Assembly: GCA_016193395.1 (NCBI GenBank)
Contig: JACPSH010000025.1
Location: forward strand, 1 to 64,000
DNA from: Gammaproteobacteria bacterium
GTDB taxonomy: Bacteria > Pseudomonadota > Gammaproteobacteria > Eutrophobiales > Eutrophobiaceae
Direction: 5' to 3'
DNA: 64,000 nt
Numbering within the stretch: position 1 is the stretch's first letter; each line of letters begins with the position of its first letter. The position numbers and the translations under genes were made by a program. A model generated the notes under the pieces. That model made no database searches, was not told the DNA's origin, and saw only the letters and a list, made by a program, of their open reading frames with translations. Positions 1 through 863 of this stretch are shown piece by piece.

Positions 1-450
1 ATCAGCAAGACTCCCGGGCGGACCCAACAGATCAATTTCTTCGGGTTGGCGGACAACCATCGGCTCGTGGACCTTCCCGGATACGGTTACGCGAGCGTGC
101 CGGAAGCGAAGCGGAAGCTTTGGGGGAAAACCGTCTCCGGCTACATGAAGTCGCGCGAATCACTGCGCGGTGTAGTCATCGTCATGGATGCGCGACATCC
201 CATGACCGAACTGGATCTGCAGATGCTCGAGTGGAGCGCGGCGACAGGGAAACCCGTCCACGTCCTGCTGAACAAGTCGGACAAGCTCTCGACGAAGGCA
301 GCGCGGCTGGCTCTGCGGCAGGCCGGTCGGGAGCCGGCGCTGGCCGGCGCCGGCGTACAGCTCTTTTCGGCTGCCGACGGCCGGGGCGTTCGCGAACTGC
401 GCGCGGTCCTCGATCAGTGGCTCTCCGGGAAGCATCCATCCGGAAAGTAG
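1..450 (+). CDS. engB: Ribosome biogenesis GTPase EngB/YsxC (5' end outside window)
   Basis: C-terminal part of the small TrmE-Era-EngA-EngB-Septin GTPase needed for assembly of the large ribosomal subunit. The reading frame is open from base 1, so the P-loop and start lie upstream. Visible are the switch I motif SKTPGRTQ, the G3 motif DLPGYGYA and the G4 motif NKSDKL, followed by a G5-like FSAADGRG and a stop at 450. These are the diagnostic EngB motifs. The gene faces the nuclease gene at 1057 across about 600 bases without genes. Confidence 0.95.
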   Translation: MSKTPGRTQQINFFGLADNHRLVDLPGYGYASVPEAKRKLWGKTVSGYMKSRESLRGVVIVMDARHPMTELDLQMLEWSAATGKPVHVLLNKSDKLSTKAARLALRQAGREPALAGAGVQLFSAADGRGVRELRAVLDQWLSGKHPSGK

Positions 451-648: not shown

Positions 649-863
649 TTATGCACAATTCCTCGGGGCTTGGGGCGGACCAAAACACATGCGGTACCGG
701 AGATCGGCTACAAGCCGCAGACACACATGTAACCTATTGAAATAGCTGAAAGTTATTCGACTGCTTAAAATTTAACAGATTTGTCATCATTCCCGGCGCC
801 ATGCAGACCTCAGCCCCATTTCCCTATGTCATCCACAAAGTTATCCACGATAAATGTGGATAA
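649..863. promoter_or_regulatory. Cluster of four DnaA-box-like sites with AT-rich patch
   Basis: Within the gene-free stretch 451-1056 there are TTATGCACA at 649-657, TCATCCACA at 829-837, TTATCCACG at 841-849 and, on the minus strand, TTATCCACA at 855-863. Two match the TTATNCACA consensus exactly and two differ by one base. An AT-rich stretch lies at about 735-790. This resembles a replication origin or a DnaA-titration site. The flanking genes converge on it, which is not typical of an origin. Nothing else is recognisable between 864 and 1056. Confidence 0.45.

Follow-up and report, generated by a model that had tools for sequence, protein, structure and literature searches.

The non-coding DNA downstream of engB in the window (the whole stretch of 64,000 nucleotides analysed, which is the beginning of contig C34 in an assembly of 2.7 Mb and 60 contigs) very probably contains a DARS-type (DnaA-reactivating) site, located ∼34-107 kb from dnaA/oriC in relatives where this is measurable (the dnaA-engB distance in six relatives having both genes on one contig). 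Judged from its sequence, it is best read as a DARS2-type element in which the order of the sites is unlike that of E. coli DARS2. The features of the locus are as follows, with offsets counted from the start of box III.

1-450, + strand: 3' part of engB (50S-binding GTPase), flanking gene
477-592, − strand: predicted small RNA with three stem-loops, C-rich loops and a terminator, a neighbour outside the element
649-863, + strand: the whole putative DARS-type element from box IV to box I, in a layout shared by 20 aligned family members
649-657, + strand: DnaA box IV, TTATGCACA, an exact TTATNCACA, at −180
730-742, + strand: IHF-like site, TAACCTATTGAAA, one mismatch to TAANNNNTTGATW, at −99
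763-777, no strand assigned: Fis-like AT-rich site, GCTTAAAATTTAACA, one mismatch to GNNYANNNNNTRNNC, at −66
829-837, + strand: core DnaA box III, TCATCCACA, a one-mismatch site
841-849, + strand: core DnaA box II, TTATCCACG, a one-mismatch site
855-863, − strand: core DnaA box I, TTATCCACA, an exact TTATNCACA, inverted relative to boxes II and III
1057-1986, − strand: SNase-domain nuclease ORF, flanking gene, with an uncertain upper start (the ORF overlaps rpmE at 1883-2086)

The core boxes at 829(+), 841(+) and 855(−) thus have starts 12 and 14 bp apart and the orientation +,+,−. A first-pass annotation had described this DNA as a gene-free stretch with an AT-rich patch and with two exact and two single-mismatch DnaA boxes, and the description holds: the boxes are present at 649(+) and 855(−), and at 829(+) and 841(+), respectively; the segment from about −100 to −40 is ∼80% A+T across the family, compared with ∼63% G+C in the window; and the interval from the engB stop (450) to the nuclease stop (1057) has short mechanical ORFs but no plausible protein gene. 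The engB (+) and SNase (−) genes converge on the site, as had also been stated. An Rfam search at the site gave no match.

The DARS core is defined by the spacing and orientation of its boxes (PMC5742627). In E. coli DARS1, located in the bioD-uvrB gap (L146 1608-1642), both are identical to those of the window core: the boxes lie at 1608(+), 1622(−) and 1634(−), and the other strand reads III-12-II-14-I with box I inverted. This match in the defining feature argues for a DARS-type element. Unlike the window element, DARS1 lacks an IHF match at the tested offsets and a box IV (≤1 mismatch) at the corresponding distance. E. coli DARS2 (rppH-mutH region) shares with the window a three-box core with an inverted box I (a less exact match) and additional DnaA boxes in the regulatory part, where DARS2 has a Fis consensus and the window a Fis-like site. 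It also has an IHF match at −87 (−99 in the window), likewise ahead of box III and on the same strand, and this agreement in orientation is a further point in favor of a DARS-type site. The order of sites differs, being core-Fis-IHF-box IV in the window and core-IBS1-FBS2/3-IBS2 in E. coli. The Fis-like site of the window lies between IHF and the core (−66), whereas the Fis consensus in DARS2 lies beyond IHF, at about −125, and box IV in the window has the same direction as boxes II and III (−180), whereas the DARS2 box is inverted (−185). The window element is also shorter (215 bp compared with 455 bp), and in its family it lies near oriC whereas the E. coli DARS sites are far away. The site order and the proximity to oriC were counted against the DARS reading, as were the single mismatches in the IHF and Fis sites of the window and the presence of four IHF/HU-family proteins that do not let IHF be told apart. 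DARS2 spacing is maintained in E. coli-proximal species (PMC5742627), and DARS-like sequences have already been reported in many proteobacteria (PMC10380432).

Boxes downstream of engB recur in the members of the window's family that were examined and are absent beside engB in other families. Relatives retrieved with EngB among named genomes are few and distant. A search for the core pattern TTATNCACA-N3-TTATNCACA-N5-TGTGNATAA (≤3 mismatches, with the reversed pattern as control) found it in 44 of the 53 family genomes, nearly always as a single copy (45 sites in total), with no match for the control. By hand count, the core adjoins engB in 30 of the 31 genomes having both an EngB match and a core, the sole exception being G020, in which the two are on different contigs. 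Among the family genomes only G005 was seen to have two cores, the second of which (G005:C11:59750-59784) is not beside engB. Boxes IV and I are 204-208 bp apart in the 20 aligned members, an IHF match is present at −101 to −96 in 23 of 32 family loci, and a relaxed AT-rich form of the Fis site occurs at −66 in 25 of 32; the exact Fis consensus is unmet in the window and rare within its family.

The core is also widespread in the Gammaproteobacteria. With ≤2 mismatches allowed, 238 of the 369 class genomes sampled contain it, corresponding to 184 of 272 genera, and the reversed pattern again gave none; this recurrence in family and class, set against empty controls, supports a DARS-type site. 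The 89 class-wide cores examined outside the family have unrelated flanking genes, priA, prfB, ksgA, tdk, cysK/ampD and xerD among them. The element lies just upstream of a priA-cluster gene in nine of the first 30 (L150, L153, L166 and L168-L173), priA being assigned by clustering with one identified PriA (replication restart helicase). Flanks long enough for scoring box IV and IHF are available for 86 cores, which are the best-listed matches and a non-random draw, so that the following fractions may differ for weaker cores. A same-direction DnaA box (∼−178) is present at −184 to −160 in 70 of these 86 (shuffle expectation 1.25), and an IHF consensus (∼−98) at −102 to −84 in 52 of 86 (shuffle expectation 3.7). 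Both are present in 49 of the 86, and in 47 of the 49 they are 77-81 bp apart. In most loci with IHF at −87/−88, box IV is found at about −164 to −167, a joint shift of approximately one helical turn. The exact Fis consensus occurs at −66/−65 in 30 of 87 class-wide loci, compared with ∼0.08 per offset for shuffled sequences. The window conforms to the main class-wide form (−180, −99, −66), with one mismatch each in the IHF and Fis sites, which are predicted sites, namely consensus matches backed by positional conservation. That the matches for box IV, IHF and Fis keep fixed offsets throughout the class, even among unrelated genes, further argues for a DARS-type element.

In 14 of the class genomes checked for dnaA, the cores lie ∼0.1-1.35 Mb from this gene (distances worked by hand). 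These cores are therefore not the dnaA-linked origin, and proximity to dnaA is a trait of the window's family and not of the class. Matches to the core pattern were also obtained outside the Gammaproteobacteria in a sample of the phylum; these do not amount to a count of DARS sites, since some may be origins. Some of them (in G479, G453 and G500) overlap on both strands, 12 bp apart, like symmetric box arrays, and may represent origins and not DARS sites.

In E. coli DARS, ADP-DnaA oligomers form on the core, and head-to-head contact at boxes I and II leads to ADP release; DARS2 additionally requires IHF and Fis (PMC5742627). The window's genome encodes DnaA together with a second DnaA-like AAA protein of Hda size (Hda-like), one Fis homolog, and four IHF/HU-family proteins among which IHF is not distinguishable from HU, a complement that is in line with a DARS-type site. 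By analogy with E. coli, ADP-DnaA would assemble on core boxes I-III, and the molecules on boxes I and II would meet head to head, loosening ADP; apo-DnaA would then depart and take up ATP. An IHF bend at −99 may fold DnaA bound at box IV (−180) back onto the core, the IHF site being near the midpoint of box IV and the core, the position that such a fold requires. Fis at −66 could assist the fold, and IHF and Fis together would gate reactivation as at DARS2. That the proteins bind, that the nucleotide is exchanged and that box IV plays this part are all inferred here.

A further-reaching reading, which we consider unlikely, holds that the class-wide layout (start to start: box IV, 79 bp, IHF, ∼32 bp, Fis, 66 bp, core) would be the ancestral gammaproteobacterial form, of which DARS1 and DARS2 would be reduced or rearranged versions, and that the element could switch between a datA-like state with IHF-looped boxes IV, III and II and a DARS-like state with boxes I and II head to head. 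A purely datA-like function, in which boxes III and II, which share the direction of box IV, would be looped to it by IHF and the resulting complex would hydrolyze DnaA-bound ATP instead of reloading it, appears quite improbable. E. coli datA is likewise non-coding and is described as having an IHF site between same-direction DnaA boxes (PMC5742627), an arrangement shared with the window element, where box IV and the IHF site are both conserved and keep a fixed distance. However, the essential boxes of datA all face one way (PMC5742627), whereas the window element has an inverted box I at DARS spacing that ranks with its best-conserved parts, and by this description the two are set apart.

It is very unlikely that the boxes serve simply to hold DnaA or to control the small RNA whose predicted promoter begins near box IV. 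This RNA is placed between engB and box IV, spans 477-622 (−) with its promoter region, and has a fold z-score of −3.6, with conserved stems and some compensating changes. The predicted promoter-like motifs GAAC and GTC/TCTAA are conserved upstream of it, an arrangement that we read as resembling ECF or sigma-E promoters, and box IV lies ∼25 bp upstream of the predicted −35 element, as expected if DnaA regulated this promoter. The small RNA is similar to Xanthomonas sX13, an RNA with three C-rich loops that is located downstream of polA (PMC3771888). The model of the window's small RNA, R1, has matches beside engB in four other gammaproteobacterial families and in L056 (a SZUA-140 assembly), which rest mostly on sequence because the model has only 8 base pairs. 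In L056 (6001-10637) the order is engB, small RNA, polA, DARS-type element, and the small RNA and the element are therefore separable; this order suggests that polA once sat between them in the window's lineage. Against control of the small RNA promoter, polA separates the two in L056, the same layout is found next to priA, prfB, ksgA and further genes that show no small RNA of this kind, and R1 gave no matches in the eight priA loci scanned. A role of the element in engB regulation is rejected as well, given its position beyond polA in L056 and beside priA or other genes in other families. Titration, for its part, requires no fixed spacing. Titration alone does not account for a spacing that is fixed, a box I that is inverted and IHF and Fis sites that are conserved; a DARS-type element explains all of these.

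The first-pass annotation had proposed an origin of replication or a DnaA-titration locus; the broader notion of a locus for control through DnaA binding stands, while the origin fails on both GC skew and the position of dnaA. Bacterial oriC, like the window element, combines DnaA boxes with AT-rich DNA and an IHF site, but a chromosomal or second origin at this site is extremely improbable. GC skew, computed on the contigs of interest only, does not turn at the site, where the annotation had suggested looking for a minimum: in the window's own genome the skew is positive on either side of engB (C56 and C34), and the change from negative to positive comes at dnaA on C1. Likewise, the sign is constant across engB in four relatives (G014, G036, G025 and G010). 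In G014 and G036 a turn occurs near dnaA, with a weaker one in G025; G010 has a diffuse turn 15-30 kb past dnaA and none at engB. The annotation's own doubts about an origin, among them the lack of dnaA in the window, were justified: the gene sits on another contig (C1:95826-97274), in an order that the ORFs suggest to be rnpA-rpmH-dnaA-dnaN-recF-gyrB. The dnaA-dnaN gap (L019, C1:97275-97470) is very AT-rich, carries TTATCCACA and TTATCAACA, and coincides with the skew turn. This gap is likely to be the oriC of the window's genome, and identity of the engB site with oriC is rejected, as no skew turning point is found at engB and dnaA is located elsewhere. The end of C56 and the start of C34 (window 1-141) share exactly 141 identical bases inside engB; the two contigs therefore very likely adjoin, and the break between them may be an assembly artefact.

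The annotation had also proposed a genome-wide count of DnaA boxes, and by this count (a pattern search of the whole 2.7-Mb genome) the density at the site is far above background: there are 16 copies of TTATNCACA and 224 sites within one mismatch of TTATCCACA (∼1 per 12 kb), so that four boxes in 215 bp exceed what is expected by chance. Although short degenerate motifs frequently arise randomly, a chance cluster of boxes has next to no credibility and is ruled out by the conservation of position and spacing across family and class and by the spaced three-box pattern, which has one match in the window (two mismatches, with three tolerated) and none in 100 shuffles.

A search of the literature for DARS in other genera found nothing relevant, and a combination of box IV at ∼−178, IHF at −98 and Fis at −66 was not described in the texts covered, which did not extend to the original 2009 DARS paper or to supplements; the novelty of this layout is accordingly unproven. 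Most of what is established about the recharging of DnaA with ATP comes from E. coli, and a fixed layout of four boxes, IHF and Fis across the class, in varied gene contexts, provides a common element to test. Judged by the class-wide layout, the DARS sites of E. coli may be atypical. The window's family offers a simple case, with an element that is origin-proximal and nearly always present as a single copy per genome.
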